Shown here: positions 6,178 through 54,531 of the stretch, in pieces
Layout: each line of letters begins with the position of its first letter
Numbering within the stretch: the first letter of the stretch is position 1
Source of the DNA: Pseudomonas brassicacearum
Lineage (GTDB): Bacteria; Pseudomonadota; Gammaproteobacteria; Pseudomonadales; Pseudomonadaceae
Direction of reading: 5' to 3'
Length of the DNA: 64,000 bases
Assembly (NCBI RefSeq): GCF_009601685.2
Contig: NZ_CP045701.2
Coordinates: 2,914,001 to 2,978,000 of the forward strand
Notes under the pieces: model-generated
Told to the model about the DNA's origin: nothing
The model's input: the letters and a program-made list of their open reading frames with translations, nothing else
Databases searched by the model: none
Program-made: the position numbers and the translations under genes

Positions 6178-6334
6178 GGCGGTTCCTTGGGGAAATAGAA
6201 GAGGGCGGCGATTGTAAACGCTATGGCGTGGGCAGCTCCAATACCAATGTTGAATGGGCCGCTGTTGTCGCGAGCGGCTCGCTCCACATTGGTTTTGGGT
6301 TGGTCTCAGGTTTGGTGTCCACCGCGAATCCCTT

Positions 6335-37069: not shown

Positions 37070-40000
37070 ATGATTCCTTCGTCTTCGGTCGACGAGCAAA
37101 GTTTTCGCAAGCTTCTGAGCCGCAATATCAGCCTGCCGCTGGGCATAGGCGCCCTCAGCGCGGCGTTTTTCATCATCCTTATCACGTACCTGCTGTCGGT
37201 GTTCCAATGGGTCGGGCATACCGACCGGGTGATCAATAATGCCAACGAAGCGTTCAAGCTGAGCGTGGATCTGGAAACCGGCATGCGTGGCTTTCTCTTG
37301 AGCGGTGACGAGCATTTCCTCGACCCCTATGAAGTCGCCAAGCCCAGGATTGCCGTTGTGCTGGACACACTGTTGGAATTGACAGCCGACAACCCCGTCC
37401 AGACCGACCGTCTGCACAAGATACAAGCACTCCAGGCCGAGTGGGCCAATTACGCCCAGGACATGATCGACCTGCAACGCACCAGCGGCGATTACCGGGG
37501 AGCGTTGAAGGCCGGGCGCGGCAAGCGCCTGACCGACGAGATTCGCCAGTCTTTCGAAGACATTGTCGCGACCGAGCAGCAACTGCGTGCGGCGCGCAAT
37601 GAGGAGGTGCGTACCACCACGATCTGGAGTATCGCCCTGTACCTGCTGTTCGTTGCCGCAGTCAGTGGGTTGCTGGCCTACGTCGGCCGCCGGGATCTGT
37701 TGAGCCTGTCCGAGAGCTACAGCGCCAGCTTGAAAGTCCAGCAACGCAGCGCCTTGCACCTGGAGAAGCAGGCCTGGTTACGCAATGGCCAGACACTGCT
37801 GGCCGAGCAGGTCCTGGGGCAGTTGTCGCTGAACCTGTTGGGCCGCAACATCCTGCAGTTCTGTGCCAAGTACCTGGGCGTCGCTGTCGCTGCGCTTTAT
37901 GCGCGCGAAGAAAATGGAGTCCTCAGGCGCGTTGCCACCTACGGTCTGTCCCGGGAGGACGAAGAGCAACAGCAGGTGATCGTCGCCGGCGAAGGCATCG
38001 CCGGCCAGGCCGTGCAGCAGGGGCGCCTCATCCGCCTGGACGACGTGCCGGACGATTACCTGAAAGTCAGCTCCGGATTGGGGCAAGGTCTGCCCAATAG
38101 CGTGCTGGTGGCACCCACCAGTGACGATGACCGGATCAACGGTGTCATCGAGCTGGGTTTCTTGCGGCCATTGACCGAGCGCGACATCGAGCTGCTGGAG
38201 CTGATTTCCGGCAATATCGGCACCTCCATCGAAGCCGCCCGTTATCGCCAACGCCTGCAGGAAGTGCTGGCCGAAACCCAGCAGTTGAACGAAGAACTGC
38301 AAGTGCAGCAGGAAGAGCTCAAGACCGCCAACGAGGAACTGGAGGAGCAGTCGCGCATCCTCAAGGAGTCCCAGGCCCACCTGGAAGCCCAGCAGCAGGA
38401 ACTGGAGCAGACCAACGAGCAATTGGCCGAACAGCGCGACGCCATGGACCACAAGAACAGCGAGCTGAACCTGGCCCAGATCCAACTGCAGGAGCGCGCC
38501 GAAGAACTGCAGCGTTCGAGCAAGTACAAATCCGAGTTCCTGGCCAACATGTCCCACGAGCTTCGTACACCGCTCAACAGCTCGCTGATTTTGTCCAAGC
38601 TGCTGGCGGAAAACCCGCAGCAGAATCTCAGCGAGGAGCAGGTCAAGTTTGCCGAGTCGATCTACTCCGCCGGCAACGACCTGTTGAACCTGATCAACGA
38701 TATTCTCGACATCTCCAAGGTCGAGGCCGGAAAGCTGGAAGTACGCCCGGAAAACACCAGCGTGCAGCGTCTGGTGGAAGGACTGCGGGCCATGTTCGAG
38801 CCGTTGGCAGCCGACAAGGGCCTGGGTTTCGAGGTCCAGCTGTTGCCTGATGCGCCGGCAATGCTCTACACCGACCGCCAGCGCCTGGAACAGGTGGTCA
38901 AGAACCTGTTGTCCAATGCCGTGAAGTTCACCGAGCAAGGCACCGTCAGCCTATCGGTGGCCGGGCAGCCGGGCTCGGGCATCGCGTTCATGGTGCGCGA
39001 CTCCGGGATCGGCATCGCCGCCGATCAGCAGCAGAGCATCTTCGAAGCGTTCCGCCAGGCCGATGGCACGACCAACCGTCGTTATGGCGGTACCGGCCTG
39101 GGGTTGTCGATTTCCCGGGACCTGGCCACGTTGCTGGGCGGCTCGATCTCCGTTTCCAGCGAGCCGGGGAAGGGCAGCGTATTTACGCTGGTATTACCTG
39201 AACGTTACGTCGAGCCTGGAGACTCGCCGATGGAACCGATGACGTTCACCCCGACGGCCACCGCGCCAGCGCCGGCTGCGTCAAAAGTCGCATCGGCGCC
39301 GCTGATCGCTGAAGTGGATACGCCGATTGCCCGATTTGCCGACGACCGCGACAAGGCGCCGTTCGACACCCGATGTATCCTGGTGATCGAAGACGAGCCC
39401 AAGTTCGCCCGGATCCTGTTCGACCTGGCCCATGAGCTCGGTTACGGGTGCCTGGTGGCCCACGGTGCCGATGAAGGCTTCGACCTGGCATTGCAACTGG
39501 CGCCCGACGCGATCCTGCTGGACATGCGCCTGCCGGACCACTCCGGGCTGACCGTGTTGCAGCGGCTCAAGGAGCGGGCCGAAACCCGGCACATCCCGGT
39601 GCACGTGATTTCCGTCGAAGACCGCGTCGAAGCGGCCATGCACATGGGGGCCATCGGCTATGCCGTCAAGCCGACCACCCGCGAAGAACTCAAGGATGTA
39701 TTCGCTCGCCTGGAAGCCAAGCTGACCCAGAAGGTCAAGCGGGTGCTGCTGGTGGAGGACGATGACCTGCAGCGCGACAGCATTACCCGCCTGATCGGCG
39801 ACGATGACATCGAGATCACCGCCGTTGGCCTGGCCCAGCAAGCCCTGGACCTGCTGCGGACCAACGTCTACGACTGCATGATCATCGACCTCAAGTTGCC
39901 GGACATGCTTGGCAATGACCTGCTCAAGCGCATGTCCAGCGAAGACATCTGTTCCTTCCCGCCGGTGATCGTCTACACCGGGCGCAACCTGACCCGCGAC

Positions 40001-40552
40001 GAAGAGGTCGAACTGCGCAAGTATTCACGCTCGATCATCATCAAGGGCGCCCGCTCGCCAGAGCGCCTGCTGGATGAAGTGACACTCTTTCTGCACAAAG
40101 TCGAATCCCGGTTGTCCCATGAACGGCAGCGGATGCTCAAGACCGCCCGCAGCCGCGACAAAGTGTTTGAAGGCCGCAAGGTGCTGCTGGTGGATGACGA
40201 TGTGCGCAACATCTTTGCCCTGACCAGTGCCTTGGAGGCGAAGGGGGCGATCGTTGTCATCGGCCGTAACGGCCTGGAGGCGATCGATCGCCTGAACGAA
40301 TTCGACGACATCGACCTGGTGCTGATGGATGTCATGATGCCGGAGATGGACGGTTTCGAAGCCACCGCGCTGATCCGCAAGGACCCGCGCTGGCGCAAGC
40401 TGCCCATCATTGCCGTGACGGCCAAGGCGATGAAGGATGATCAGGAACGCTGCCTGGCGGCCGGTTCCAACGACTACCTGGCCAAGCCGATCGATCTGGA
40501 TCGTCTGTTCTCGCTGATTCGCGTGTGGTTGCCGAATATGGAAAGAATTTAG
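37070..40552 (+). CDS. Hybrid sensor histidine kinase: CHASE3-GAF-HisKA-HATPase-3xREC
   Basis: 1160 residues. TM1 is at about 24-46, a periplasmic CHASE3 domain at about 50-180 (MRGFLLSGDEHFLDPY), TM2 at about 183-205 and GAF at about 245-390. A long charged coiled coil follows at about 393-485, then HisKA with His496 (NMSHELRTPLN). The ATPase domain shows NLLSNAVKF, DSGIGIA and GGTGLGLS (about 600-712). Three receivers follow with Asp818, Asp940 and Asp1087; the second has SII-IKGA around its Lys. It heads a tightly packed cassette with CheR, CheB, a second kinase and a receiver; the stop overlaps the CheR start by one base. The signal is unknown. Confidence 0.92.
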   Translation: MIPSSSVDEQSFRKLLSRNISLPLGIGALSAAFFIILITYLLSVFQWVGHTDRVINNANEAFKLSVDLETGMRGFLLSGDEHFLDPYEVAKPRIAVVLDTLLELTADNPVQTDRLHKIQALQAEWANYAQDMIDLQRTSGDYRGALKAGRGKRLTDEIRQSFEDIVATEQQLRAARNEEVRTTTIWSIALYLLFVAAVSGLLAYVGRRDLLSLSESYSASLKVQQRSALHLEKQAWLRNGQTLLAEQVLGQLSLNLLGRNILQFCAKYLGVAVAALYAREENGVLRRVATYGLSREDEEQQQVIVAGEGIAGQAVQQGRLIRLDDVPDDYLKVSSGLGQGLPNSVLVAPTSDDDRINGVIELGFLRPLTERDIELLELISGNIGTSIEAARYRQRLQEVLAETQQLNEELQVQQEELKTANEELEEQSRILKESQAHLEAQQQELEQTNEQLAEQRDAMDHKNSELNLAQIQLQERAEELQRSSKYKSEFLANMSHELRTPLNSSLILSKLLAENPQQNLSEEQVKFAESIYSAGNDLLNLINDILDISKVEAGKLEVRPENTSVQRLVEGLRAMFEPLAADKGLGFEVQLLPDAPAMLYTDRQRLEQVVKNLLSNAVKFTEQGTVSLSVAGQPGSGIAFMVRDSGIGIAADQQQSIFEAFRQADGTTNRRYGGTGLGLSISRDLATLLGGSISVSSEPGKGSVFTLVLPERYVEPGDSPMEPMTFTPTATAPAPAASKVASAPLIAEVDTPIARFADDRDKAPFDTRCILVIEDEPKFARILFDLAHELGYGCLVAHGADEGFDLALQLAPDAILLDMRLPDHSGLTVLQRLKERAETRHIPVHVISVEDRVEAAMHMGAIGYAVKPTTREELKDVFARLEAKLTQKVKRVLLVEDDDLQRDSITRLIGDDDIEITAVGLAQQALDLLRTNVYDCMIIDLKLPDMLGNDLLKRMSSEDICSFPPVIVYTGRNLTRDEEVELRKYSRSIIIKGARSPERLLDEVTLFLHKVESRLSHERQRMLKTARSRDKVFEGRKVLLVDDDVRNIFALTSALEAKGAIVVIGRNGLEAIDRLNEFDDIDLVLMDVMMPEMDGFEATALIRKDPRWRKLPIIAVTAKAMKDDQERCLAAGSNDYLAKPIDLDRLFSLIRVWLPNMERI

Positions 40553-41367
40553 TGGAACGTGACACTGACATTGAAATTCGTCTGTTGATCGAAGCGATCT
40601 ACCTCAAGTACAGCTACGATTTTCGCGATTATTCCGGTGCGTCCATCAAGCGCCGGGTCCACCATGCGCTGAGTCAGTTCGAGTGCAGGACCATTTCGGC
40701 ACTGCAGGAGCGCGTGCTGCACGACCCGGGAGCGTTCATGCAGTTGCTGCAATTTCTGACGATTCCCGTCAGCGAGATGTTTCGCGACCCCTCGCATTTC
40801 CTGGCAATCCGCGAAGAAATCGTGCCGCTGCTCAGGACGTATCCTTCGATCAAGATCTGGATCGCCGGTTGCAGCACGGGGGAAGAGGTTTATTCCATGG
40901 CGATTCTGCTGCGCGAAGAAGGCCTGCTGGACCGTACCTTCATCTATGCTACCGATATCAATCCGCACTCGTTGGATAAAGCCAAACAGGGGATTTTTTC
41001 CCTGGAAAACGTGCGCGCCTATACCCAGAACTACCAGAATGCCGGAGGCCGGCGCTCGTTTGCCGATTACTATACCGCCGCCTACGATTATGCGATGTTC
41101 GACAAAACCCTGTGCGAGAACGTGACCTTTGCCGATCACAGCCTGGCGACCGACAGTGTCTTTTCAGAAACTCAGTTGATTTCCTGTCGTAACGTATTGA
41201 TATATTTCAATAAGAAACTACAAGATCGTGCATTTGGACTGTTTCATGAGTCCCTTTGTCACCGTGGTTTCCTGGTACTGGGCAGTAAGGAAACGTTGGA
41301 TTTCTCGGCTTACGGCCATCGATTCGAGCCGTTGGTCAAACAGGAACGGATCTATCGCAAGTTATGA
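40552..41367 (+). CDS. CheR-family SAM-dependent protein methyltransferase
   Basis: 271 residues covering the CheR helical N-domain and the methyltransferase fold. IAGCSTGEEVYS (104-115) is the SAM motif, YATDINPHSL binds the cofactor, and SCRNVLIYFN matches the CheR signature. The start is GTG at 40552, sharing a base with the kinase stop (TAGTG), with GGAAAG upstream; the longer ATG frame from 40525 lies inside the kinase gene. The stop overlaps the CheB start (ATGA). No chemoreceptor is in the cassette, so the methylated partner is probably the hybrid kinase or another protein. Confidence 0.88.
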   Translation: MERDTDIEIRLLIEAIYLKYSYDFRDYSGASIKRRVHHALSQFECRTISALQERVLHDPGAFMQLLQFLTIPVSEMFRDPSHFLAIREEIVPLLRTYPSIKIWIAGCSTGEEVYSMAILLREEGLLDRTFIYATDINPHSLDKAKQGIFSLENVRAYTQNYQNAGGRRSFADYYTAAYDYAMFDKTLCENVTFADHSLATDSVFSETQLISCRNVLIYFNKKLQDRAFGLFHESLCHRGFLVLGSKETLDFSAYGHRFEPLVKQERIYRKL

Positions 41368-41951
41368 ACCAGACGAAGGACAGATCCAACCCGCCCATCG
41401 AAGCCATTGTCGTCGGTGCGTCGGCCGGTGGTGTCGACGCGCTGCTCAGGGTGTTCGGACACCTGCGCAGAGGCTTTGGCGTGCCGATCCTGGTGGTATT
41501 GCATTTGCCGGATGAGCGCGACAGTCAACTGGCCCACGTATTCGGACATCGTCTGGCGGTGCCGGTGGAGGAAGCCCGGGACAAGCAAGACATCATGCCG
41601 GGAACCTTGTATGTCGCCACGCCTGGCTATCACTTGTCGGTCGAAGCTGACCGTAGCCTGTCGTTGAGCCTGGAAGAGCCGGTGCATCACTCGCGGCCGT
41701 CCATCGATGTGTTGTTTGAATCGGCCGCCGATGTCTACGGCCAGAAATTGCTGGCCGTGGTGCTGACCGGCGCCAACAATGATGGCGCCTGGGGCTTGGC
41801 CAAGGTCAGGGCGGCGGGAGGAATCACGGTGGTCCAGGACCCCGATGAGGCCCAGGTCTCGACCATGCCCGAAGCGGCGCTGGCCCTTCACGACCCCGAC
41901 CATATCCTTACTTTGCAAGGCATCGGCCAATTGCTGGCCGGGCTGGAATGA
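41364..41951 (+). CDS. CheB-type methylesterase, catalytic domain only
   Basis: 195 residues, only the CheB C-terminal esterase/deamidase domain without the receiver domain of classical CheB. The catalytic triad is Ser20 (VGASAGG), His47 (VVLHLPD) and Asp140 (LTGANNDGAWG). Without a receiver it should be constitutively active or controlled by its partners. It overlaps CheR and the next kinase by four bases on each side, indicating strict co-translation and stoichiometric control. Confidence 0.9.
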   Translation: MNQTKDRSNPPIEAIVVGASAGGVDALLRVFGHLRRGFGVPILVVLHLPDERDSQLAHVFGHRLAVPVEEARDKQDIMPGTLYVATPGYHLSVEADRSLSLSLEEPVHHSRPSIDVLFESAADVYGQKLLAVVLTGANNDGAWGLAKVRAAGGITVVQDPDEAQVSTMPEAALALHDPDHILTLQGIGQLLAGLE

Positions 41952-43237
41952 ACTACATGCCAAGAGATATTCAAGCCAAACTGCTGATCGTCGATGATCT
42001 GCCTGAGAATCTGTTGGCCCTGGAAGCGTTGATCAAGGGGAGTGACCGCGAGGTCTTCAAGGCCCAGTCGGCGGACGAAGCGTTGTCGCTGCTGCTGCAA
42101 CACGACTTTGCCCTGGCGATTATCGATGTGCAGATGCCGGAGATGAACGGGTTCCAACTGGCCGAGCTGATGCGCGGCACGGAGAAGACCCGCAGCATTC
42201 CCATCATCTTCGTCAGTGCCGCTGGCCGTGAACGCAACTATGCCTTTACCGGGTATGAAAGCGGAGCGGTGGACTTCCTGCACAAGCCGCTGGACACCCA
42301 GGCGGTCAAAAGCAAGGTCAATGTATTCGTCGAGTTGTACCGCCAACGAAAGGCCATGAAGGAGCAGGTCGTAGCCCTTGAGCAGAGTCGCCGCGAGCAG
42401 GAGGTCCTGTTGCAGCAACTGGAGGCCACTCGCGGCGAACTGGAGCAAGCGGTGCGCATGCGTGATGACTTCATGTCCATCGTTGCCCATGAGGTGCGCA
42501 CGCCCCTCAATGGTCTGATTCTCGAGACACAACTGCGCAAGATGCACCTGGCCCGGGACAACGCCGCAGCCTTCAGCCTGGACAAGGTGCGGGCGATGGT
42601 CGAACGTGACGAGCGGCAGATCAAGAGCCTGATCCGACTGATCGAAGACATGCTGGATGTTTCGCGGATTCGCACCGGCAAGCTGTCGATCCGTCCGACC
42701 CGCCTCAACTTGACGGCATTGGTGGAAAACCTGCTGCACAATTTCCAACCGCAGATCGCCGTCGCCGAATGCTCGTTGACCTGCTTGGCCGAACCGTCGG
42801 TGGAGGGGCTTTGGGATGAGTTTCGTATCGAGCAGGTGGTCTCGAACTTGTTGACCAATGCGTTGCGCTACGGCGGCAAGGGCCCGATCGAGGTGCGCGT
42901 CTACAAGACGCCCGACCACGCCTGTATCGAGGTCCAGGATCACGGCATCGGCATCAGCGAGGAGAACCAGAAACGGATCTTCCAGCAGTTCGAGCGCGTA
43001 TCGTCCAAGGCGGCCGCTGCCGGCCTTGGGCTTGGGCTGTTCATTTCCGAGCAGATTGTCACGGCCCATGGCGGGACGATCACGGTCAACAGCCGCCTTA
43101 ACGAAGGGGCGTTGTTTCGTGTTTGCCTGCCTTTGCAGAAAACTGTCTTGGACAAAACCGCCGAACAGACGCAACCTCTGAGAGACCCCAAGGTCGTATC
43201 AGCAGCTATTGATCGAACGAAGGCTTCTCATGAGTGA
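41948..43237 (+). CDS. Soluble REC-HisKA-HATPase sensor kinase
   Basis: 429 residues. An N-terminal receiver (Asp60 in IIDVQMPEMNG) is followed by a coiled coil (about 135-172), HisKA with His181 (VAHEVRTPLNG), and the ATPase domain with NLLTNALRYGG, DHGIGIS and LGLGLFIS. No membrane segment is present, so its input is phosphotransfer to the receiver, probably from the upstream hybrid kinase. The ATG overlaps the CheB stop (ATGA); its own stop overlaps the next start by eight bases. Confidence 0.9.
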   Translation: MNYMPRDIQAKLLIVDDLPENLLALEALIKGSDREVFKAQSADEALSLLLQHDFALAIIDVQMPEMNGFQLAELMRGTEKTRSIPIIFVSAAGRERNYAFTGYESGAVDFLHKPLDTQAVKSKVNVFVELYRQRKAMKEQVVALEQSRREQEVLLQQLEATRGELEQAVRMRDDFMSIVAHEVRTPLNGLILETQLRKMHLARDNAAAFSLDKVRAMVERDERQIKSLIRLIEDMLDVSRIRTGKLSIRPTRLNLTALVENLLHNFQPQIAVAECSLTCLAEPSVEGLWDEFRIEQVVSNLLTNALRYGGKGPIEVRVYKTPDHACIEVQDHGIGISEENQKRIFQQFERVSSKAAAAGLGLGLFISEQIVTAHGGTITVNSRLNEGALFRVCLPLQKTVLDKTAEQTQPLRDPKVVSAAIDRTKASHE

Positions 43238-43607
43238 AGATGCGCAAGATGTTGTATTGATCGTCGAGGATGACCCGTCGATCCTGATGGTGTTATCGGC
43301 TTACCTGTCTGGCGAGGGATACCGGGTGCTGCAGGCCGAAAACGGTGCCCAGGCGTTCGAGATCCTGGCGAGCAAGCCTCATCTGGACATGATGATTACC
43401 GATTTCCGCCTGCCGGGTGGTATCTCCGGGGTGCAGATCGCCGAGCCTGCGGTCAGGTTGCGTCCCGAGCTGAAGGTCATTTTCATCAGTGGCTACGCCC
43501 AGGAAGTGCGCGACACTGACAGCCTCCTTGCCCGCGAGGCGCCGATCCTGGACAAGCCGTTTGACCTGGATGAGCTGCAGAGCATCATGCAGTCGATGTT
43601 GTCGTAG
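43230..43607 (+). CDS. Single-domain response regulator, last gene of cassette
   Basis: 125 residues, a lone receiver. VVLIVEDDPS is the acidic pocket, Asp58 (MMITDFRLPGG) the phosphoacceptor, FISGYAQE the Ser strand and LDKPFD the Lys. It starts inside the last codons of the preceding kinase. It has no output domain, so it may act by protein contact like CheY, or as a phosphate sink. Confidence 0.88.
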   Translation: MSEDAQDVVLIVEDDPSILMVLSAYLSGEGYRVLQAENGAQAFEILASKPHLDMMITDFRLPGGISGVQIAEPAVRLRPELKVIFISGYAQEVRDTDSLLAREAPILDKPFDLDELQSIMQSMLS

Positions 43608-43745: not shown

Positions 43746-45419
43746 TCAAACGGTCTGGATCATCTCCCGCACCTTGGCCGTCAATAGATCAAACGTGAAC
43801 GGCTTGGTGATCATCTGCATCCCTGGGTCAAGGAAGCCGCCGCGTACCGCGGCATGTTCCGCGTAACCGGTGATGAACAGTACCCGCAGGTCCGGGCGGA
43901 TCTGCCGGCCTATTTCCGCCAGTTGCCGGCCATTCATGCCGGGCAGGCCCACGTCGCTGATCAGCAGGTCGATGCGTTGGCCTGACTGCAGGATCGGTAC
44001 CGCGCCGTTGGCGTCGGCCGCTTCCACAAAGGCATAGCCCAGCTCGCTCAATACCGCGCTCACCAGCACTCGCACCGCGGGATCGTCCTCGACGATCAAC
44101 ACGGTCTCACCGTCCTGCGCATAGGGTGCGTTTGGGGTGGTGACCTGAGGTTCGCGTATTTCTTCACCGCGAAAGCGCGGCAGGTAAAGGTTCACGGTGG
44201 TGCCTTTGTCGACTTCGCTGTCGATGGTCACATGGCCACGCGATTGCTTGCTGAACCCATAGATCATCGACAGGCCCAGCCCGGTGCCCTGGCCGATTGG
44301 CTTGGTGGTGAAGAACGGGTCGAACGCGCGACCGATGATCGCTTCGGGCATGCCGCAGCCGCTGTCCTGCACGCTCAGTACCACATAGTCGCCGGGTGCC
44401 AGATTGGTGTAGGCATCGGTGAAATCGGCGTCCAGGTGCTGATTGCAGGTCTTCACCACCAGGTTCCCACCGTTGGGCATGGCATCCCGGGCGTTGAGGA
44501 CCAGGTTGAGCAGGGCGCTTTCCAGTTGGTTGGGATCGGCTTCGGCGACCCAGAGCTGTTCGTCCAGCTGCATGTCCAGGCGGATGCTTTCGTTGAGGCT
44601 GCGTTGCAGCAGCTCGCCCATGGACAGCACCAGGGTGTTCATCTGGACGGCCTTGGAGTCCAACGATTGCCGACGGGAAAACGCCAGCAGGCGATGGGTC
44701 AGGCCTGCGGCGCGGTTGGCCGAGGTCACGCCCAGGTCGATCAGGCTGTCCAGGTCCTCGGTGCGGCCACGGGCCAGGCGTCGGCGCAGCAGTTCGAGGC
44801 TGCCGATGATCCCGGTAAGCATATTGTTGAAGTCGTGGGCAATACCGCCGGTGAGTTGGCCGACCGCTTCCATTTTCTGTGACTGGCGCAGGGCTTCTTC
44901 GTTATGGCGCAACTGGGCGGTGCGTTCTTCCACTTGCTGCTCAAGGGTTTCAAGGGTGGTTTGCAGGCGCAGTTCGCTGTTGCTGAGATCGATCAGGCGG
45001 TCGCGGGCTTCGTACTGCCTTCGACGGCCTCGCAGGGCGGTGGTCACCAGGCTGATCAGGGTCACTGGATGGAACGGTCGCTCCAGAAAAGTCACGTTGC
45101 CCAGTTGCGTACCGATACGCGCCGCCGGGTCCTGTTCCGGGCCGCCATGGTGGGTGAGCAAGACAATGGGCAGGTCAGACCAGGCCGGCTGCTGCTCGAT
45201 GTGCAGGAACAGCGCTTCCAGATCAGCCCCCACCAAGGCCTCCGAGGAAATCACCAGCAGGCCGGCACCTTTTTCCAATTCTTCGCACAAATGGCCCAGA
45301 TGATGGCAAACGAGGCCGGCGAAACCGGCTTCGTTGAGGATCATCAAGGCGATCTGGCTGTCCCGTCCCAGCGGCGCGAGGATCAGCGTTCGCTCGGGCA
45401 GGGGCTCGACCAGGGTCAC
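43746..45419 (-). CDS. Hybrid histidine kinase with degenerate N-terminal receiver, KaiC partner
   Basis: 557 residues. Residues 1-130 look like a receiver fold lacking the phosphoacceptor (GLLVISSEAL where Asp is expected; TFLERPF keeps the end of the fold). A coiled coil follows at about 140-180, then HisKA with His195 (GGIAHDFNNML), HATPase (NLVLNARDAMPNGG, DSGCGMP, GTGLGLSM) and a C-terminal functional receiver (DLLISDVGLPGMNG, FITGYAE, TKPF). No membrane segment. The start is GTG at 45419, overlapping the kaiC stop as GTGA, so kinase and KaiC-like ATPase are co-translated. The pseudo-receiver plus kinase next to KaiC recalls cyanobacterial CikA, with domains in another order. Confidence 0.88.
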   Translation of the reverse strand: MTLVEPLPERTLILAPLGRDSQIALMILNEAGFAGLVCHHLGHLCEELEKGAGLLVISSEALVGADLEALFLHIEQQPAWSDLPIVLLTHHGGPEQDPAARIGTQLGNVTFLERPFHPVTLISLVTTALRGRRRQYEARDRLIDLSNSELRLQTTLETLEQQVEERTAQLRHNEEALRQSQKMEAVGQLTGGIAHDFNNMLTGIIGSLELLRRRLARGRTEDLDSLIDLGVTSANRAAGLTHRLLAFSRRQSLDSKAVQMNTLVLSMGELLQRSLNESIRLDMQLDEQLWVAEADPNQLESALLNLVLNARDAMPNGGNLVVKTCNQHLDADFTDAYTNLAPGDYVVLSVQDSGCGMPEAIIGRAFDPFFTTKPIGQGTGLGLSMIYGFSKQSRGHVTIDSEVDKGTTVNLYLPRFRGEEIREPQVTTPNAPYAQDGETVLIVEDDPAVRVLVSAVLSELGYAFVEAADANGAVPILQSGQRIDLLISDVGLPGMNGRQLAEIGRQIRPDLRVLFITGYAEHAAVRGGFLDPGMQMITKPFTFDLLTAKVREMIQTV

Positions 45420-46918
45420 CGGTGTTCATCCTTGAGCAGCGGGTTGCTCTCGCCCATGTACGTGGGAACCCCTCGCAGGACGCCCTGGAAGGCCTCAAGC
45501 GGCTCGCCGATGGTCATGCCCGACCCGTTGATGCGGTATTCGCGGATGGTCGACTCATGGCTGCCCGTGCGTTTCTTGATGATGGAAATCGCCCGGCGAA
45601 CCTTGCCCACTGCCTCGAAATAACGCAATAGAATCACCGTGTCGGCCAGGTAAGTAATGTCCACGGGCGCCTGCATGTCGCCGACCAGACCGTGCTGTGC
45701 AACCGTCATGAAGGTCGCCGCGCCCTTGCGGTTGAGATAGAGCAACAATTCATGCATGTGCAGCACCAGGGCGTTCTCCTCCGGCATGGCCGCCTGATAG
45801 CCATTGATGCTGTCGATGACCACGGTCTTGATGTCACCCTCATCGACACAACGGCGCACGCGGTAGGAGAACTCGCCGGGGGACAGCTCGGCGGCGTCTA
45901 CTTGTTCGATCAGCAGGTTGCCGGTCTCTTGCAGGGCCTGCAGATCGATGCCGATGTTTTTCATGCGCTCGAACAGCAAGCCCAGTTCTTCATCGAAGAT
46001 GAACAGCGCGGCCTTCTCCCCGCGGTGCACGGCGGCGGCGGCAAAAATCAGCGCTATCAGCGACTTGCCGGTCCCTGCCGGGCCCAGGATCAACGTGCTG
46101 GAGCCGGTCTCGATACCACCGCCCAGCAGCGCATCCATCTCGTCGATGCCGCTGGAGAGTTGCTGACGCAGGTAGCGGCCGCGGTGTTCGGCGGCCACCA
46201 GGCGTGGGAAGACGTGTACGCCGTCGCCCATGATGGTGAAGTCATGGTAACCGCCACGGTATTTCTGCCCGCGATACTTGACCACCCGGATCCGGCGCCG
46301 TTCGGCGCCATAGTTGGGGGTCAGTTCCTCCAGGCGAATCACCCCGTGGGCGACGCTGTGCACGGTTTTGTCCAGAGACTCGGTGGTCAGGTCGTCGAGT
46401 AACAGGACCGTGGCATCGTAGCGCACGAAGTAGTGCTTGATCGCGAGGATCTGGCGACGATAGCGCAAGGAGCTTTGCGCCAGCAGGCGAATCTCCGACA
46501 GGCTGTCGAGCACCACCCGGGTTGGCTTGACCCGTTCGACCACTTCGAAGATCTGTCGGGTCGCTTCGCCCAGTTCCAGGTCCGAGGAGTACAGCAGGCT
46601 CTGCTGGTGCTCGGCATTGAGCAGGCTTTCGGGCGGGGTCAGTTCGAAAATATGAATGTTGTCGTCCAGCGTCCACCCGTGGGAGGTTGCGCCCTGACGC
46701 AGTTCACGCTCGGTTTCCGATAGCGTGATGTATAACGAGCGCTCGCCAGCCTTGGCGCCGGCCAACAGAAAATGCAGCGCGACCGTGGTCTTACCAGTCC
46801 CCGGTTCCCCCTCGAGCAGGAACACATGGCCGCGGGACAAACCACCGGAAAGGACGTCGTCAAGTCCTTCGATGCCGGTGGCGGCTTTTGCACTGATCAA
46901 CTCGTTAGATGTAGACAA
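45416..46918 (-). CDS. KaiC-like double RecA-fold ATPase
   Basis: About 500 residues with two KaiC domains. CI has Walker A GEPGTGKTT; CII has GPAGTGKS (Lys285). CII keeps the catalytic Glu pair (Glu310-Glu311 in FDEELG), while CI has Ser67-Glu68 in place of the CI pair. At the CII autophosphorylation site (Ser431-Thr432 in Synechococcus) this protein has Thr422-Tyr423 in DITYLADT. No KaiA or KaiB gene lies in the window. The start is taken as TTG at 46918 because GAGAGGG lies six bases upstream; ATG 46933 has no site. It is co-translated with the downstream kinase. Confidence 0.9.
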   Translation of the reverse strand: MSTSNELISAKAATGIEGLDDVLSGGLSRGHVFLLEGEPGTGKTTVALHFLLAGAKAGERSLYITLSETERELRQGATSHGWTLDDNIHIFELTPPESLLNAEHQQSLLYSSDLELGEATRQIFEVVERVKPTRVVLDSLSEIRLLAQSSLRYRRQILAIKHYFVRYDATVLLLDDLTTESLDKTVHSVAHGVIRLEELTPNYGAERRRIRVVKYRGQKYRGGYHDFTIMGDGVHVFPRLVAAEHRGRYLRQQLSSGIDEMDALLGGGIETGSSTLILGPAGTGKSLIALIFAAAAVHRGEKAALFIFDEELGLLFERMKNIGIDLQALQETGNLLIEQVDAAELSPGEFSYRVRRCVDEGDIKTVVIDSINGYQAAMPEENALVLHMHELLLYLNRKGAATFMTVAQHGLVGDMQAPVDITYLADTVILLRYFEAVGKVRRAISIIKKRTGSHESTIREYRINGSGMTIGEPLEAFQGVLRGVPTYMGESNPLLKDEHR

Positions 46919-47064
46919 AAATAGCCCTCTCATGACTAGGGAAGTGGGCAGCAGGCGGGGTAACGCCTGAATTTAACTGCCTGAACACTTGACCTTTGGC
47001 GGTGATGGCGGTTCCGCTTACATCGATAAAACGAGGTGTACTGCACAACTTTGGTAGGCGCTGT

Positions 47065-47189
47065 GTAGGAGCTGTCGAGCGAAGCGAGGCTGCGATCTTT
47101 ACCAAGCCCATCGAATGACAAGCGAACACTCGAACTCTCTAGATCAAAAGATCGTCAGAACGCGGCCCGAGCCTTCGGCAGCTCCTACA
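47065..47189. repeat. Type-2 REPIN, copy 4 (degenerate, one octamer)
   Basis: GTAGGAGCTGTCGAGCGAAG (47065) to CAGCTCCTAC (47189). Only one AAAAGATC unit is left (about 47142-47150) and the centre has diverged. It supplies the TAG stop codon of the TPR-protein gene (47185-47187). Confidence 0.85.
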
Positions 47190-48243
47190 GGCCTTGTTGC
47201 AGCGCCGGGTCGTCAGGGTTCAACTGTTCAAGTTGCGCCTGCAGGATCTGAACATTCTGCAACTGACCGGTCTCCTTCCAGTAGTTGATCAGCAATACCC
47301 GCGCCTTGCGATCGGCGGGGTAGCGCTGGACGATTTCCTGCAGCTGTTTCTGCGCTGCTTCCACTTCCTGCTCGGCATGCAGGGTAGTCGCCAGGTCATA
47401 GCGGTAATGGCGGTTCTCGGGGTCCAGTTCCACAGCTTTTGCCAAGCCGAGCACGGCATACTCGTTCTGGCCGTGTTGCAGCAGCCACATGCCCAGCGCA
47501 TGTTGCAGATAGGCCGACGCTGGCTGGGCTTTCAACTGTCGGGCGAGCAATAGTCGCGCGGCTTCGCCCTGGCCTTGTTTGTCCAATACTTCGATCTGCA
47601 TGACCAGCGCCGGCAGGTTGTCCGGTTGCAGGCGCAAGGCCTGCTCAAGCGCCAGTTGGGCTTTCTTCAATGCGCCGTTGTGCAGGTGCAGCCGAGCGAG
47701 CTGGAAGTAGGACTCAGCGGTTTTCGGCGCGTCTTCGAGTACCTGCTCCCAGGTGTCGATGGCTAACTGCATCGCCCCGAAATACAGGCCGAGGTCATCC
47801 GGGGAGAGGCCCAGCAGCGCATTCACGGCGGCGAATCGGACATTCTGGTCGTCATCATCCAGGAGCGGGCCGAGCAACAGGCTGCGCTGACCTGTCGGCA
47901 CCAGCCCGACGATGCTGCCAATGGCGGCCCGACGCACGTCCGGCGATTCGCTGTGCAGATCCGCATCCGCCAGCTTCAGGGCTTGGGGGCTGGGGTAGTT
48001 GGGCAGTTCGGCGTGCAGCCATATGCGGCGCTTGGGCGACAGGTCTGGACGCCCCAGTTGCTGGTAAAGCATCCGCGCCGCCCCAGGCTGCCCGTTGCGG
48101 GCGCTTCCCAAGGCTTCACTGTAGCCACGCTTGATCGCTTCCGGGATCTGCGGCGTGGTGCTGCGCAGCCATACCGCGACAAGACCAATCACCAACAGGA
48201 CACAGAGGCTGAGGAGCAGATAGCGGCGGCGAGACGAAGACAT
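47185..48243 (-). CDS. Membrane-anchored TPR/HEAT-repeat protein
   Basis: 352 residues. One N-terminal membrane helix (RYLLLSLCVLLVIGLVAVWL) is followed by a periplasmic part. HEAT-like segments occupy about 100-165 (SPDVRRAAIGSIVGLVP, DDQNVRFAAVNALLGLSP). At least four TPR-like helix pairs then follow (AESYFQLARLHLHNGALKKA, LQHALGMWLLQHGQNEYAVL, RYDLATTLHAEQEVEAAQKQL). I recognise no specific family name. It is probably a scaffold for a periplasmic assembly. The stop codon TAG lies inside the REPIN arm, so the C-terminus may have been set by the repeat insertion. Start 48243 is chosen just before the anchor; the ribosome site is weak. Confidence 0.75.
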   Translation of the reverse strand: MSSSRRRYLLLSLCVLLVIGLVAVWLRSTTPQIPEAIKRGYSEALGSARNGQPGAARMLYQQLGRPDLSPKRRIWLHAELPNYPSPQALKLADADLHSESPDVRRAAIGSIVGLVPTGQRSLLLGPLLDDDDQNVRFAAVNALLGLSPDDLGLYFGAMQLAIDTWEQVLEDAPKTAESYFQLARLHLHNGALKKAQLALEQALRLQPDNLPALVMQIEVLDKQGQGEAARLLLARQLKAQPASAYLQHALGMWLLQHGQNEYAVLGLAKAVELDPENRHYRYDLATTLHAEQEVEAAQKQLQEIVQRYPADRKARVLLINYWKETGQLQNVQILQAQLEQLNPDDPALQQGL

Positions 48244-48355
48244 GCAGGTAATCCATAACCAGGAGCGTGAAATGCCGCAAGCTTCGGTCAGGTGGGGGCT
48301 TGAGTCAAACTCTGTGAAGCCTCTCATGCACCCAGAGTAAGCTTGCCCGAGTCAA

Positions 48356-48440
48356 TGTGGGAGCATGGCTTGCCCGCGATGAGGGGGGTATCAGCAATGC
48401 AACTGACACACTGCTATCGCGAGCAAGCTTTGCTCCCACA
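48356..48440. repeat. Type-1 REPIN upstream of the TPR-protein gene
   Basis: TGTGGGAGCATGGCTTGCCC (48356) faces GAGCAAGCTTTGCTCCCACA (ends 48440). The two halves differ slightly, so the outer 7 bp pair best. Confidence 0.88.
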
Positions 48441-48483
48441 GGGCACTCCCACAGGAGGAGGTCGAGGTTAGCGCCAGCCGAAA

Positions 48484-48514
48484 AAAAGCCCCGCGTCCAA
48501 ATGAGAAGCGGGGC
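48484..48514 (-). terminator. Rho-independent terminator of mexEF-oprN
   Basis: Stem GCCCCGC (48488-48494) / GCGGGGC (48508-48514), read on the minus strand, is followed by TTTTTTT and begins 50 bp past the oprN stop. Confidence 0.88.
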
Positions 48515-48564
48515 AAAAATTTGGCTGGTTGCGGCCAACCAAAGGAGCTCGGTTGAGAAGGGGG

Positions 48565-49986
48565 TCAGTTGCTGGCAACGGTCTCCGGTTTCCAGCCGCC
48601 GCCCAGGGCCTTGTAGATCGCGACGATGCCGCGGTACAGGTCCACTTCGGCCTGGGCCTGGGTGTCTTCGGCGGCCAGGCGTTCGCGCTGGGCGTCGAGC
48701 AGCACGAGGAAGTCCACAGTGCCTTCGCGGTAGCGAATCTCGGCCAGGTCGGCGGCGGCACGGCTCGATTCACTCTGGCGGATCAGCGAGATCAGCCGTT
48801 GTTGGCGCTTGCCGTAGTCACTGAAGGCGTTCTCCGATTCTTCCAGGGCCAGCAGCACTTGCTGTTCGTAGGTCGCCAGGGCGCCGTCCGCCTCGGCGTC
48901 GGCACCGCGCAAGCGCGCCCGCACGCTGCCCAGGTCGAAAGCCGCCCAGGTAATGCTCGGGCCCAGCGCCCAGGCGTTGGCCGCCGAGGAGCCGATCTGC
49001 GAGCCGCGTCCAGCCGTGAAGCCCAGGAAACCGCTCAGGCTGACCCGTGGGAACAGATCGGCCTTGGCCACGCCTATGCGCGCCGTGGCAGCGGCCAGTT
49101 GGCGTTCGGCACTGAGGATGTCCGGACGCCGTTGCAGCAGTTCACCCGGGTCGCCGATGGGCAGGGCCTTGGCGATGGCCGGCAACTGTTTCGGGCTCAG
49201 GTCCACGCTGAGTTTGTCCGGACGCTCGCCCAGCAACGTGGCGATGCGATTGCGTTGGCGCACCTGTTCAGCCTGCAGTTGCGGCACGCTGGCCTCGACC
49301 GAGGCCAGGCGGGCATCGGCACGCACCACATCGAGCTGATCGCCGACGCCGGCATCACGCAGGCTTTCGGTGATCTTGCGCGAATCCTGCTGGTTCTTGA
49401 GGTTCGCCAGAGCAATTTTTTCCCGCAGTTGCGCGCCGCGCAACTGACCGTAGGCATCCACCAATTCGGCGATCATCGTCACCTGCAATTGATAGAGATC
49501 GGCTTCGGCGGCCTGCTGATCGGCGTCGGTGGCTTCCAGGTTGCGTTGGATGCGTCCGAACAAGTCCAGCTCCCAGGCCATGTCCAGGCCCAGGTCGTAA
49601 CGCTCGGTATTGACCCGGTCGGTGGTCTGCCCCGGGATCTGGCCTTTGCCCAGGTTGCTGCTGGCACGGCTGGTGATGGTCGGCATGGCGTCATTGCTGG
49701 CGTCATCGCGAATCGCCCGGGCGGCCCGCAGACGGGCGAAAGCCACGCGCAACTCGCGGTTGCCTTCCAGGGATCGGGTCACCAACGCGTTGAGGGTCGG
49801 GTCGTCGAACTGCTGCCACCAGATGCCTTCGAAACGGGCACGGTCGAAATTCTTCTGGCCGGCGGCGCCGTCGGTGGCGGTGGTGATATTCGCCGCCTCC
49901 GTTTGTGGGGCCTTGTAGTCCGGGCCCACGGCGCAGGCACTCAAGGCCAACGCCAGCAGGCTCGGCACGAACGCTTTCAAACTCAT
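48565..49986 (-). CDS. oprN: OprN-like outer-membrane efflux channel lipoprotein
   Basis: 473 residues of the OprM/TolC family (outer-membrane factor, NodT-type lipoprotein). A lipobox in the signal peptide (LALSACAVGPDY, Cys near residue 20) gives lipid anchoring. The two repeated OEP halves follow, with helices such as ALVTRSLEGNRELRVAFARLRAARA and LLQRRPDILSAERQLAAATARIGVAKADLFP. GGAGG precedes the ATG, which overlaps the mexF stop by four bases. A terminator follows, so it is the last gene of the pump operon. Confidence 0.9.
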   Translation of the reverse strand: MSLKAFVPSLLALALSACAVGPDYKAPQTEAANITTATDGAAGQKNFDRARFEGIWWQQFDDPTLNALVTRSLEGNRELRVAFARLRAARAIRDDASNDAMPTITSRASSNLGKGQIPGQTTDRVNTERYDLGLDMAWELDLFGRIQRNLEATDADQQAAEADLYQLQVTMIAELVDAYGQLRGAQLREKIALANLKNQQDSRKITESLRDAGVGDQLDVVRADARLASVEASVPQLQAEQVRQRNRIATLLGERPDKLSVDLSPKQLPAIAKALPIGDPGELLQRRPDILSAERQLAAATARIGVAKADLFPRVSLSGFLGFTAGRGSQIGSSAANAWALGPSITWAAFDLGSVRARLRGADAEADGALATYEQQVLLALEESENAFSDYGKRQQRLISLIRQSESSRAAADLAEIRYREGTVDFLVLLDAQRERLAAEDTQAQAEVDLYRGIVAIYKALGGGWKPETVASN

Positions 49987-52900
49987 TGTTGCGCCTCCAG
50001 TTTCAAAGCCCGGGCCGCCTTGCGGGCCTCGCTGCGCTCGACGAAGTTGCGGATCAGTACATAGAACACAGGGGTGAGCAGCAGGCCGAAGAAGGTTACG
50101 CCCAGCATCCCGGAGAACACCGCTACACCCATGGCATGGCGCATTTCCGCACCGGCGCCGCTGGAGAACACCAGGGGCACCACGCCCATGATGAAGGCGA
50201 AGGAGGTCATCAGGATCGGCCGCAGACGCAGACGGCACGCTTCCAGCACCGCCGCCAGCGGATTCAGGCCCTCGAGCTGTTTATCCTTGGCGAACTCGAC
50301 GATCAGGATTGCGTTCTTGCACGCAAGGCCTACCAGTACGATCAAGCCGATCTGGGTAAAGATGTTGTTGTCGCCGCCGGAGAGAATCACCCCGGTAATT
50401 GCCGACAGCAGGGTCATCGGTACGATCAGGATCACCGCCAATGGCAGGCTCCAGCTTTCGTACTGTGCCGCGAGCACCAGGAACGCCAGCAGTACGCAGA
50501 GCGGGAACACGAACAGCGCGGTGTTGCCCGAGAGGATCTGCTGGTAGGTCAGATCGGTCCACTCGTAGGTCATGCCGTTGGGCAGTTCGTCCTTGAGCAG
50601 TTTCTCGATGGCTTTTTCAGCCTGGCCGGAGCTGTAGCCCGGGGCGGCGGCACCGTTGATTTCAGCGGTGATGAAGCCGTTGTAGTGCATCACACGGTCT
50701 GGCCCCGAGGTATCGCTGACCTTGATGAAGGTCGCCAGCGGGATCATCTCGCCACGGTTGTTGCGCACCTTGAGCTGGCCGATCTGGTCCGACTCGAGGC
50801 GGAACTGCTGCTCGGCCTGGACGTTGACCTGGTAGGTACGGCCGAAGCGGTTGAAGTCGTTGGCATACAGCGAGCCCAGGTAGATCTGCAAGGTGTCGAA
50901 AATGTCGCTGACGGCCACGCCATGGGTCTTGGCTTTTTCACGGTCGATGGCGGCATCGACCTGGGGCACGTTCACGGTGTAGCTGGTGAACAGTCCGGCC
51001 AGTTCCGGCACGTTGTGGCTCTTGGCGATGATGTTCATGGTTTCTTTGTACAGCTCGTCGTAGCCCAGGTTGCCCCGGTCTTCGATTTGCAGGCGGAAAC
51101 CACCGATCGTGCCCAGGCCCTGTACCGGCGGCGGCGGGAAGATCGCCATGTAGGCTTCCTGGATCTCCGAGAACTGGCCGTTCAAGGCACCGGCGATGGC
51201 GCCGGCCGACATGCTCGGGTCCTTGCGCTCGTCGAAGGGCTTGAGGGTCACGAACACGATGCCGGCGTTCGGGCTGTTGGTGAAACCGTTGATCGACAGG
51301 CCCGGGAAGGCCACGGCGCTTTCAACGCCCGGTTGCTTGAGGGCCAGGTCGGACATGCGCTTGATCACGTCTTCGGTACGATCCAGGCTCGCGGCGTCCG
51401 GCAGTTGGGCGAAGGCCACCAGGTATTGCTTGTCCTGGCCAGGCACAAAGCCAGTCGGCGTGGTGGAAAAACCGAAGAAGGTCAGCACCATCAGGCCTGC
51501 ATAGAGCACCAGCGCGATGCCGCTGCTACGAATCACCCGGGCGACGGTGCCCACATAACCATGACTGGCACGCTCGAAGAAGCGGTTGAACGGACGGAAC
51601 AGCCAGCCGCCGAATACCTTGTCCAGCAACCGCGAGAAACGGTCCTTGGGCGCGTCATGGCTCTTGAGCAGCACCGCGGCCAGCGCCGGCGACAGGGTCA
51701 GGGAGTTGAACGCCGAGATCACGGTCGAAATCGCAATGGTCAAGGCGAATTGTTTATAGAACTGCCCGGTCAAGCCACTGATGAATGCCGCCGGAACGAA
51801 GACCGCGCACAGCACCAGGGCGGTGGCGATGATCGGGCCGGTCACTTCGCTCATGGCGCGCTTGGTGGCCTCCACCGGCGTGAGCCCGAGACCAATGTTT
51901 CGTTCGACGTTCTCCACCACCACGATCGCATCGTCCACCACGATACCGATCGCCAGTACCAGGCCGAACAGCGACAGGGCGTTCAACGAGAAGCCAAACA
52001 GGTGCATCACCGCGAACGTACCGATCAGCGAAACCGGTACCGCCACCAATGGAATGATCGAGGCGCGCCAGGTCTGCAAGAACAGGATCACCACCAGCAC
52101 CACGAGAATCAGTGCTTCGAACAGGGTGTGCACCACCGCTTCGATGGAGCCACGGACGAAGATCGTCGGGTCATAGACGATGCTGTAGTCCATCCCGGCC
52201 GGGAAGCCCTTCTTCAACTCTTCCATCTTCTGGCGGACGTCGTTGGAGATCTGGATGGCGTTGGAGCCCGGACGCTGGAAGATCGGGATCGCCACCGCCG
52301 GCTGGTTGTCCAGCAGCGAACGCAGGGCGTATTGGCTGGAACCCAGTTCGACCCGGGCGATGTCCTTCAGGCGAGTGATCTCACCGTTGGCGCCGGAACG
52401 AACGATGATGTTCTCGAACTCTTCCTCATTCACCAGGCGACCCTGGGTGTTGATCGACAGCTGGAAAGCCTGGGCATTGGGCGCTGGCGGCGCACCCAGG
52501 GCGCCGGCAGCCACCTGGCGGTTCTGTTCGCGGATCGCGTTGACCACGTCGGTGGCAGTCAGGTTGCGCGAAGCCGTCTTGTTCGGATCCAGCCAGACTC
52601 GCAGCGAGTAGTCGCCCATGCCGAACAGTTGCACATCACCCACACCACCCAGGCGCGCCAGCTCATCCTTGATGTTGAGCAGGGCGTAGTTGGACAGGTA
52701 GAGCATGTCGTAGCGTTTGTCCGGCGAGGTCAAGTGCACGACCATGGTCAGGTCGGGCGAGGCCTTGTCCACCGTGATACCGATCCGGGTCACCTCTTCC
52801 GGCAGCTTGGGCTCGGTCCGGGTGACGCGGTTCTGCACCTGCACCTGGGCGTTATCCAGGTCGGTGCCCAGGGCGAAGGTGATGGTCAGGGTGATCTTGC

Positions 52901-53162
52901 CGTCGGCGGTGGACTGCGAGGACATGTACAACATGTTCTCGACACCGGTGATGGCTTGCTCCAGGGGCGCGGCCACGGTTTCGCCGATGACCTTGGGGTT
53001 GGCGCCCGGGAAGTTGGCGCGCACGACCACGGTCGGCGGCACGACTTCCGGGTATTCGCTGATCGGCAACTGGAACAGCGAGATGGCGCCGGCGATCAGG
53101 ATCAGCAGCGAAAGCACCGCTGCGAAGATCGGCCGCGAAATGAAGAACTGGGAAAATTTCAT
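49983..53162 (-). CDS. mexF: MexF-like RND efflux pump
   Basis: 1059-residue proton-driven inner-membrane transporter of the HAE-1 RND family. The N-terminus (MKFSQFFISRPIFAAVLSLL) and segments such as QLPISEYPEVVPPTVVVRAN, VDKASPDLTMVVHLTSPDKR and the TM4 proton-relay region with two adjacent Asp (GIVVDDAIVVVENVERN) follow MexF very closely from memory. In P. aeruginosa MexEF-OprN exports chloramphenicol, trimethoprim, fluoroquinolones and quinolone-signal precursors. It lies between mexE (15 bp) and oprN (4-bp overlap). Confidence 0.94.
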   Translation of the reverse strand: MKFSQFFISRPIFAAVLSLLILIAGAISLFQLPISEYPEVVPPTVVVRANFPGANPKVIGETVAAPLEQAITGVENMLYMSSQSTADGKITLTITFALGTDLDNAQVQVQNRVTRTEPKLPEEVTRIGITVDKASPDLTMVVHLTSPDKRYDMLYLSNYALLNIKDELARLGGVGDVQLFGMGDYSLRVWLDPNKTASRNLTATDVVNAIREQNRQVAAGALGAPPAPNAQAFQLSINTQGRLVNEEEFENIIVRSGANGEITRLKDIARVELGSSQYALRSLLDNQPAVAIPIFQRPGSNAIQISNDVRQKMEELKKGFPAGMDYSIVYDPTIFVRGSIEAVVHTLFEALILVVLVVILFLQTWRASIIPLVAVPVSLIGTFAVMHLFGFSLNALSLFGLVLAIGIVVDDAIVVVENVERNIGLGLTPVEATKRAMSEVTGPIIATALVLCAVFVPAAFISGLTGQFYKQFALTIAISTVISAFNSLTLSPALAAVLLKSHDAPKDRFSRLLDKVFGGWLFRPFNRFFERASHGYVGTVARVIRSSGIALVLYAGLMVLTFFGFSTTPTGFVPGQDKQYLVAFAQLPDAASLDRTEDVIKRMSDLALKQPGVESAVAFPGLSINGFTNSPNAGIVFVTLKPFDERKDPSMSAGAIAGALNGQFSEIQEAYMAIFPPPPVQGLGTIGGFRLQIEDRGNLGYDELYKETMNIIAKSHNVPELAGLFTSYTVNVPQVDAAIDREKAKTHGVAVSDIFDTLQIYLGSLYANDFNRFGRTYQVNVQAEQQFRLESDQIGQLKVRNNRGEMIPLATFIKVSDTSGPDRVMHYNGFITAEINGAAAPGYSSGQAEKAIEKLLKDELPNGMTYEWTDLTYQQILSGNTALFVFPLCVLLAFLVLAAQYESWSLPLAVILIVPMTLLSAITGVILSGGDNNIFTQIGLIVLVGLACKNAILIVEFAKDKQLEGLNPLAAVLEACRLRLRPILMTSFAFIMGVVPLVFSSGAGAEMRHAMGVAVFSGMLGVTFFGLLLTPVFYVLIRNFVERSEARKAARALKLEAQQ

Positions 53163-53177
53163 CTTGGATTCAGTCCC

Positions 53178-54431: not shown

Positions 54432-54507
54432 GGATAGCATCCGCCAATGTATTGAGAATGGGCGGATGATGCGTGGCACAAGGCAGAGGAACGAATCGAA
54501 TGAAGCA

Positions 54508-54531
54508 AAGGTAACTATCATTCAGAATGAT
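54508..54531 (-). promoter_or_regulatory. Candidate MexT-type box / palindrome upstream of mexE
   Basis: The minus strand reads ATCA-TTCTG-AATGAT-AGTT-ACCTT. The known MexT pattern is ATCA-N5-GTCGAT-N4-ACYAT; spacing is identical and 11 of 15 fixed positions agree. It contains a perfect ATCATTC-A-GAATGAT palindrome (54517-54531). It lies about 80-100 bp upstream of the mexE ATG. No mexT or mexS gene adjoins. Confidence 0.5.

Follow-up and report, generated by a model that had tools for sequence, protein, structure and literature searches.

The stretch of Pseudomonas brassicacearum DNA analyzed here (64,000 nucleotides, positions 2914001–2978000 of a 6.58-Mb single-contig genome, hereafter the window) encodes a KaiC-like ATPase whose gene overlaps that of a hybrid histidine kinase with an N-terminal pseudo-receiver (PsR) domain. 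We find that the two genes are paired well beyond this strain, that the PsR has a predicted receiver fold, that the output behind this constant PsR is exchanged, and that the PsR and KaiC co-vary. With some reserve, we consider it probable that the pair forms a dedicated, KaiA- and KaiB-free two-protein module, in which the KaiC ring ATPase binds the PsR of the kinase made together with it and controls that kinase. The features of the pair are given below.

45416..46933, minus strand, KaiC-like double-domain RecA/KaiC ATPase, 505 aa from an ATG or 500 aa from a TTG at 46918
46202..46882, minus strand, KaiC CI domain, residues 18–244, with Walker A GEPGTGKT at residues 42–49
45464..46162, minus strand, KaiC CII domain, approximately residues 258–490, with Walker A GPAGTGKS from residue 284
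45650..45655, minus strand, T427/Y428 codons, aligned with KaiC S431/T432
45416..45419, minus strand, GTGA overlap of the kaiC stop (TGA) and the kinase start (GTG)
45429..45433, minus strand, AAGGA, read from the sequence as resembling a ribosome-binding site, nine bases 5' of the kinase GTG
43746..45419, minus strand, hybrid histidine kinase with PsR-HisKA-HATPase-receiver architecture, 557 aa
44940..45419, minus strand, kinase residues 1–160, pseudo-receiver and long α5 helix, with D20, S59, E60, and R114
44175..44861, minus strand, HisKA and HATPase_c, residues 187–415, with H195 and N309
43767..44102, minus strand, C-terminal receiver, residues 440–551, with D445, D489, T517, and K539

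The pairing is conserved beyond this strain. In a sample of 149 Pseudomonas genomes, 119 contain some KaiC match (E 1e-30) and 82 an ortholog, defined by ≥50% identity; 79 of these orthologs share ≥75% identity with the window protein, three share 50 to 52%, and one (in genome G052) lies in a split frame. The kinase N-terminus is encoded directly downstream and on the same strand in all 82. Outside the genus, the PsR directly follows KaiC in all 33 loci in which KaiC is ≥41% identical (L108–L139 and L142), and the 4-base overlap recurs in 16 of the 32 such loci mapped by longest open reading frames. Among 398 Pseudomonadota genomes, which include six pair-bearing Pseudomonas (one of these being the window's own genome), the PsR adjoins 38 of 40 KaiC matches (E 1e-70 or better), and such a KaiC adjoins 38 of 41 PsR matches. 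The KaiC exceptions are two proteins of 35% identity (G763 and G543); the PsR exceptions are an orphan kinase (G833, contig 11), a degenerate copy (G747, contig 21), and a hit to a true receiver of OmpR-like type (G580). When named genomes were scanned starting from the PsR, at least 597 pattern matches came back, at least 595 of them relatives, and among the best 80 that were kept (79 titled Pseudomonas) KaiC is directly upstream in 79, 78 by script and one at a contig end (L150), with Pseudomonas sp. ANT_H4 (L208) as the sole exception. The original prediction of a KaiC-like ATPase coupled to a pseudo-receiver kinase is confirmed as a whole, the genome search for conserved kaiC–kinase pairs that it proposed finds them throughout the Pseudomonas orthologs and the other-genus loci with a KaiC of ≥41% identity, and a pairing unique to this strain is ruled out by the Pseudomonas and Pseudomonadota counts. 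The shared GTGA at the kaiC stop and kinase start was likewise read correctly, and the 500-aa form of KaiC, from the TTG, has the commonest length among its matched relatives. The named relatives nearest to the window belong to P. brassicacearum, P. kilonensis, and P. corrugata.

The first ≈130 residues of the kinase adopt a receiver fold in the predicted model, and the PsR profile matches receivers in the PDB with a best E of 5.8e-6. With positions assigned by eye, the phosphoacceptor Asp, the acid pair, and the Lys of a receiver are not present in the window PsR, which has S59, A15-P16, and R114 at these places; none of 43 aligned PsRs matches PF00072 at E 0.1. An N-terminal receiver fold lacking the phosphoacceptor Asp, as initially proposed, is in keeping with both the model and S59. 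The hallmarks of a hybrid kinase are all present (the phosphoacceptor H195, the N-box N309, and D489 and K539 of the receiver), which bears out the further claim of an active-looking kinase followed by a true C-terminal receiver. The window kinase has no recognized sensor domain besides the PsR, and neither a GAF domain nor PF07688 (KaiA) was found in it; structures of KaiA, KaiB, and CikA are not among the matches listed for the PsR model, which excludes nothing.

What stands behind the PsR is far less constant. Classified by their motifs, the 33 other-genus partners comprise 23 CckA-like, seven HWE, and three HExRxP kinases, and a Pfam check of two of them identifies HWE in L112 and HisKA in L132. 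On the KaiC tree the HWE outputs need four changes, at least three of which are forced by well-supported branches; when three long-branched rows are removed, three changes are needed and at least two are forced. It is the PsR that stays constant next to KaiC, with different kinases swapped in behind; D20 and R114 are identical under CckA-like, HWE, and HExRxP outputs. A comparison of mirror distances over 32 loci gives a correlation of 0.857 between KaiC and the PsR and of 0.639 between KaiC and the kinase domain, with partial correlations of 0.75 for KaiC–PsR given the kinase and 0.10 for KaiC–kinase given the PsR. None of 2000 permutations reaches the KaiC–PsR correlation, and the difference between the two correlations is 0.22 (0.12–0.31 for 5–95% of 500 taxon bootstraps). 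As the PsR and the kinase are one polypeptide, co-inheritance of two genes alone would not yield this difference.

Natural loss of KaiC gives a second view of the PsR. A match to the kinase N-terminus was found in 102 Pseudomonas genomes, 20 of them without a KaiC of ≥50% identity, and 13 of these KaiC-less kinases make up the aligned set, which excludes the truncated one of G129 (L060). D20 and R114 are invariant in all 47 paired PsRs, and E60 is found in 46 of these, with Asp in one; D20 and R114 are both retained in one of the 13 KaiC-less PsRs, that of L055, a recent loss. A kinase tree built by a quick method places the window-type Pseudomonas kinases, whether paired with KaiC or not, in a single supported set of 24 rows, in which the KaiC-less rows fall into one clade of 11 and a nested recent loss (L055), with L056 unplaced. 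In our reading of these sequences, the D20/R114 face at the former phosphorylation pocket would serve KaiC and not the kinase. In G129 (contig 9, ≈5821–6238) KaiC is reduced to 27 codons, and the PsR after them lacks everything before residue 77, as if a deletion had taken out most of KaiC together with half of the PsR. The gene preceding kaiC in the window is also relevant here.

47185..48327, minus strand, TPR gene upstream of kaiC, context outside the module

The same-strand genes upstream of kaiC are this TPR gene and then genes that read, by sequence, as an RND efflux operon, the order across 43746–54521 of the minus strand being MFP-RND-OMF-TPR-KaiC-kinase. A scan for promoters and terminators gave 1 and 2 sites, compared with 0.8 and 3.0 expected. 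In eight mapped KaiC-less genomes (G045, G145, G096, G003, G009, G106, G076, and G030) the kinase gene comes directly after the TPR gene, so KaiC's neighborhood also exists without KaiC; in the first three of these, TPR and kinase stand behind the same RND operon.

The window KaiC contains two PF06745 stretches, each with an intact Walker A, and solved KaiC structures match it along its length; of the catalytic EE pair one Glu is retained per domain, in SE in CI and in DE in CII. The Ser-Thr pair S431/T432 is not present, T427-Y428 being found instead, and the phosphosite is Ser/Thr followed by Tyr in the KaiC groups of ≥33% identity, among the commonest forms listed. The protein scores 167.3 bits against the clock-KaiC profile TIGR02655, far under the curated cut-off of 546.25. 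It is the one double-domain KaiC found in its genome, in which PF06745 matches more weakly at three further loci; one of these, a 501-aa frame at 5690277–5690813, was rejected as a second KaiC, as it reads as RadA by sequence. An antiphage defense assignment was also rejected, the PADLOC KaiC matches being confined to short P-loop stretches (best E 1.7e-10) and PADLOC giving no match for the kinase, as were viral copies, since the 28 stretches in viral_contigs that fit the pattern include no relatives. A second kind of KaiC, 27 to 31% identical to the window protein and with other phosphosite residues, occurs in many Pseudomonas genomes (e.g., L071 and L072); no PsR match was found in L071 and L072, the two loci inspected.

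Neither KaiB nor KaiA (PF07688) was found in the window's own genome, so that the absence of both, first noted from the window, extends to the full genome, kaiB included. At E 0.001, KaiB was not found in 46 of 50 pair-bearing genomes; in the other four (G784, G596, G699, and G612) it lies on another contig or ≈300 kb or more from the pair. Because KaiB is missing in the former and unlinked in the latter, KaiB-free operation appears to be a family trait.

More distant KaiCs have other partners. Six loci with a KaiC of 33 to 35% identity (L140, L141, and L143–L146) do not have this PsR. At five of these (all except L146) the gene after KaiC has a GGDEF motif, and Pfam resolves the L140 partner as GAF-GGDEF-EAL; control of cyclic di-GMP by KaiC is possible at these five loci. 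The N-termini of the GGDEF partners give a receiver-like five-sequence model (pLDDT 79.8), for which receivers make up most of the 50 listed Foldseek rows. Membership of the same PsR family was rejected (hhalign probability 0.9%), and going by the model the two would have only the fold in common. Because the GGDEF partners of these KaiCs are also receiver-like at the N-terminus, a scheme of KaiC, receiver-fold adaptor, and output enzyme may, on such models, be wider than the PsR family. KaiC also occurs on plasmids: 239 of 72,556 plasmid records contain a match at E 1e-60 (e.g., NC_003064.2, 503399–504907), of which 143 are from Sinorhizobium, Agrobacterium, Rhizobium, Ensifer, or Neorhizobium and 151 are at <60% identity. 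In three plasmid regions inspected (pAtC58, Caballeronia p2, and a Roseateles plasmid), the gene directly after KaiC carries a response-regulator or ATP-binding annotation; on Caballeronia p2 an IS3 transposase gene comes after this KaiC-adjacent signaling gene.

These observations can be assembled into a mechanism, in which physical binding and the direction of signaling are the parts that we infer. KaiC and kinase would be made together by coupled translation, as the sequence and the recurring overlap suggest. From what is known of the KaiC family, the KaiC double ring would be an active ATPase, and T427 may be a site of its autophosphorylation. The PsR face bearing D20, E60, and R114 would then read the condition of KaiC, such as its nucleotide content or degree of phosphorylation; this face would correspond to the phosphorylation pocket of a normal receiver, as conservation and co-loss indicate and as placed by eye on the topology. 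The predicted model suggests that the PsR would act through the long α5 helix on the kinase dimerization helices and so on phosphorylation of H195 and then D489, which would feed a further target.

Several observations weigh against this proposal. The co-loss of D20/R114 with KaiC is suggestive, not conclusive: seven of the 20 KaiC-less genomes stand outside the alignment, and because 11 of the 13 aligned rows form one clade, two or three loss events are represented and not 12. E60 is retained in two of the 13 KaiC-less PsRs, and W80, S81, D82, R132, and Q135 are retained in all 13, so the PsR also has a KaiC-independent role. The orphan PsR kinase of G833 (contig 11, L227, 3453–4850) keeps D20, E60, and R114 without an adjacent KaiC, and the degenerate second PsR kinase of G747 (contig 21, L228, 2827–5139) has lost all three in a genome with an intact pair on contig 12. 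Since G833 has a complete pair elsewhere, KaiC may act there in trans, and as the same holds for G747, the presence of KaiC in a genome is not decisive by itself. Two of the 33 paired PsRs outside the genus have an Asp at the phosphoacceptor position, the six loci with a 33 to 35% KaiC do without this PsR, and PsR matches on plasmids, at E 1e-15, number 125 records vs the 239 with KaiC. The mirror test carries no correction for tree shape or differing rates, and part of the correlation difference could come from unequal rates or from a saturated kinase domain.

The direction of signaling could also be reversed, with the kinase as sensor and input, the PsR acting on KaiC as KaiA does, and KaiC as the effector acting on its own targets. 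The PsR of KaiA is described as binding quinones, which alters KaiA stimulation of KaiC (PMC12632262), and KaiA3 of Synechocystis, a receiver-domain protein, as stimulating KaiC3 phosphorylation (PMC11372060); in several members of the present family, moreover, PsR and kinase are separated by an additional ≈120 aa, which might serve in signal sensing. However, the type of histidine-kinase motif is exchanged behind the PsR among the 33 partners, as is expected of outputs, and the window kinase has no other recognized sensor domain, so that we regard this direction as rather unlikely.

Two further explanations would dispense with a KaiC–PsR signal of the kind proposed or give it another meaning. 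That the genes are simply neighbors, inherited together for expression or horizontal transfer, with separate targets and no contact, is compatible with the plasmid records, since the partner adjoins KaiC in the three regions inspected and co-transfer by itself could preserve the gene order, and with the persistence of the Pseudomonas kinase without KaiC. Joint transfer explains poorly, however, why the PsR tracks KaiC more closely than does the kinase domain of the same gene, and the co-loss of D20/R114 is not easily accounted for in this way; we judge this explanation improbable. Least probable of all, and by a long way from a favored reading, is an hourglass or circadian KaiC timer with the PsR kinase as its output. 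The window protein does belong to the KaiC family, and a KaiA-independent hourglass made from KaiB and KaiC of Rhodobacter is reported (PMC11372060), but KaiB was found neither in the window's own genome nor in most pair-bearing genomes. The Ser/Thr-Tyr site replaces S431/T432, although some cyanobacterial KaiC3 proteins also have Tyr as the second site (PMC5520375). For KaiC of Pseudomonas, roles in stress and in biofilms are described, and no evidence that it functions in a circadian manner (PMC11832031), the stress role appearing also in PMC11372060. The minimal timing module envisaged in the original prediction finds no evidence here, in a KaiC with T427/Y428 in place of the S431/T432 pair.

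Control of the kinase by KaiC through the PsR may extend to a class of KaiC proteins in Pseudomonadota, a generalization that we put forward tentatively and somewhat short of calling it probable. The ring would dock a PsR whose dead pocket (D20, E60, and R114) serves as KaiC reader, with outputs, HisKA hybrids or HWE kinases, plugged in behind it, and distant KaiCs would use another receiver-fold adaptor before GGDEF-type cyclic di-GMP enzymes. KaiC systems outside cyanobacteria are stated to require an output pathway unlike that of Synechococcus (PMC5520375); if our proposal is true, the KaiC–PsR class is the missing output path of KaiB-less KaiC proteins. The constant PsR, the exchangeable kinases, and the co-variation with KaiC make it a concrete and testable candidate, down to two residues. 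Reading of KaiC would, in addition, assign a function to a class of pseudo-receivers; a 2025 article describes the switching of bacterial pseudo-receivers as a mystery (PMC12632262). KaiC systems as such are already known, and the new part is the PsR–KaiC yoke; in the literature searched, as far as its excerpts go, no description of a KaiC–PsR pair with exchanged outputs was found.

Facing the pair in the window is a chemotaxis-like cassette, with which the pair had been suggested to form one network.

37070..43607, plus strand, convergent cassette of hybrid kinase, CheR, CheB, receiver–kinase, and response regulator, context outside the module

The cassette lies 138 bp downstream of the kinase gene, and in 76 of the 82 pair-bearing Pseudomonas genomes it is convergent and within 25 kb of the pair; in the remaining six (G020, G043, G023, G144, G133, and G083) it is far from the pair or on another contig. 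Its CheR is wider in distribution than the pair (138 of the 149 Pseudomonas genomes vs 82), and no CheR or CheB stands beside KaiC in 39 other-genus loci of ≈10 kb. An obligate partnership is ruled out by these counts, and the case for a single network is weak. The cassette is a genus-level neighbor, for which a functional link is possible, position alone speaking for it. The CheR match has one in-frame TAA in 12 of the 138 genomes (G032, G143, and others).

A KaiC-like protein of environmental Pseudomonas was reportedly the subject of work by Terrettaz et al. in 2023, said to have used P. putida KT2440 and P. protegens CHA0. Because P. protegens has a KaiC that is 90% identical (P0063), and the same pair occurs in P. 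protegens 14B2 (L191), the window KaiC is, by its sequence, probably an ortholog of this already studied protein. CikA carries a GAF domain before its kinase and a PsR after it. Like CikA, the window kinase joins a histidine kinase to a pseudo-receiver in a KaiC system, but its PsR is N-terminal, it has no GAF domain, no KaiB accompanies it, and a canonical receiver forms its C terminus. The likeness to CikA drawn in the original prediction stands insofar as both are pseudo-receiver kinases and fails in the placement of the PsR and in the absence of KaiB, since KaiB and quinones are the reported ligands of the CikA PsR (PMC12632262). With KaiA and KaiA3 the pair shares a receiver-fold domain working with KaiC, but here that domain is joined to a histidine kinase and not to the KaiA C-terminal domain, and the genome has no Pfam match to KaiA. 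SasA is likewise a histidine kinase that reads KaiC, though through a KaiB-like thioredoxin-fold domain (PMC5520375) in place of the predicted receiver fold found here. CckA-type kinases (PRK13557; PDB 5idj and 5idm) are the best match of the window kinase and C-terminal receiver, which falls below the family cut-offs and differs in having an N-terminal PsR as input. Also comparable is the kaiC2-kaiR2 cluster of Methylorubrum extorquens AM1 (PMC8069551), also a two-gene kai cluster without kaiB and with a stress phenotype, in which KaiC2 is phosphorylated at Ser426, a single site that would be expectable for a Ser-Tyr KaiC.

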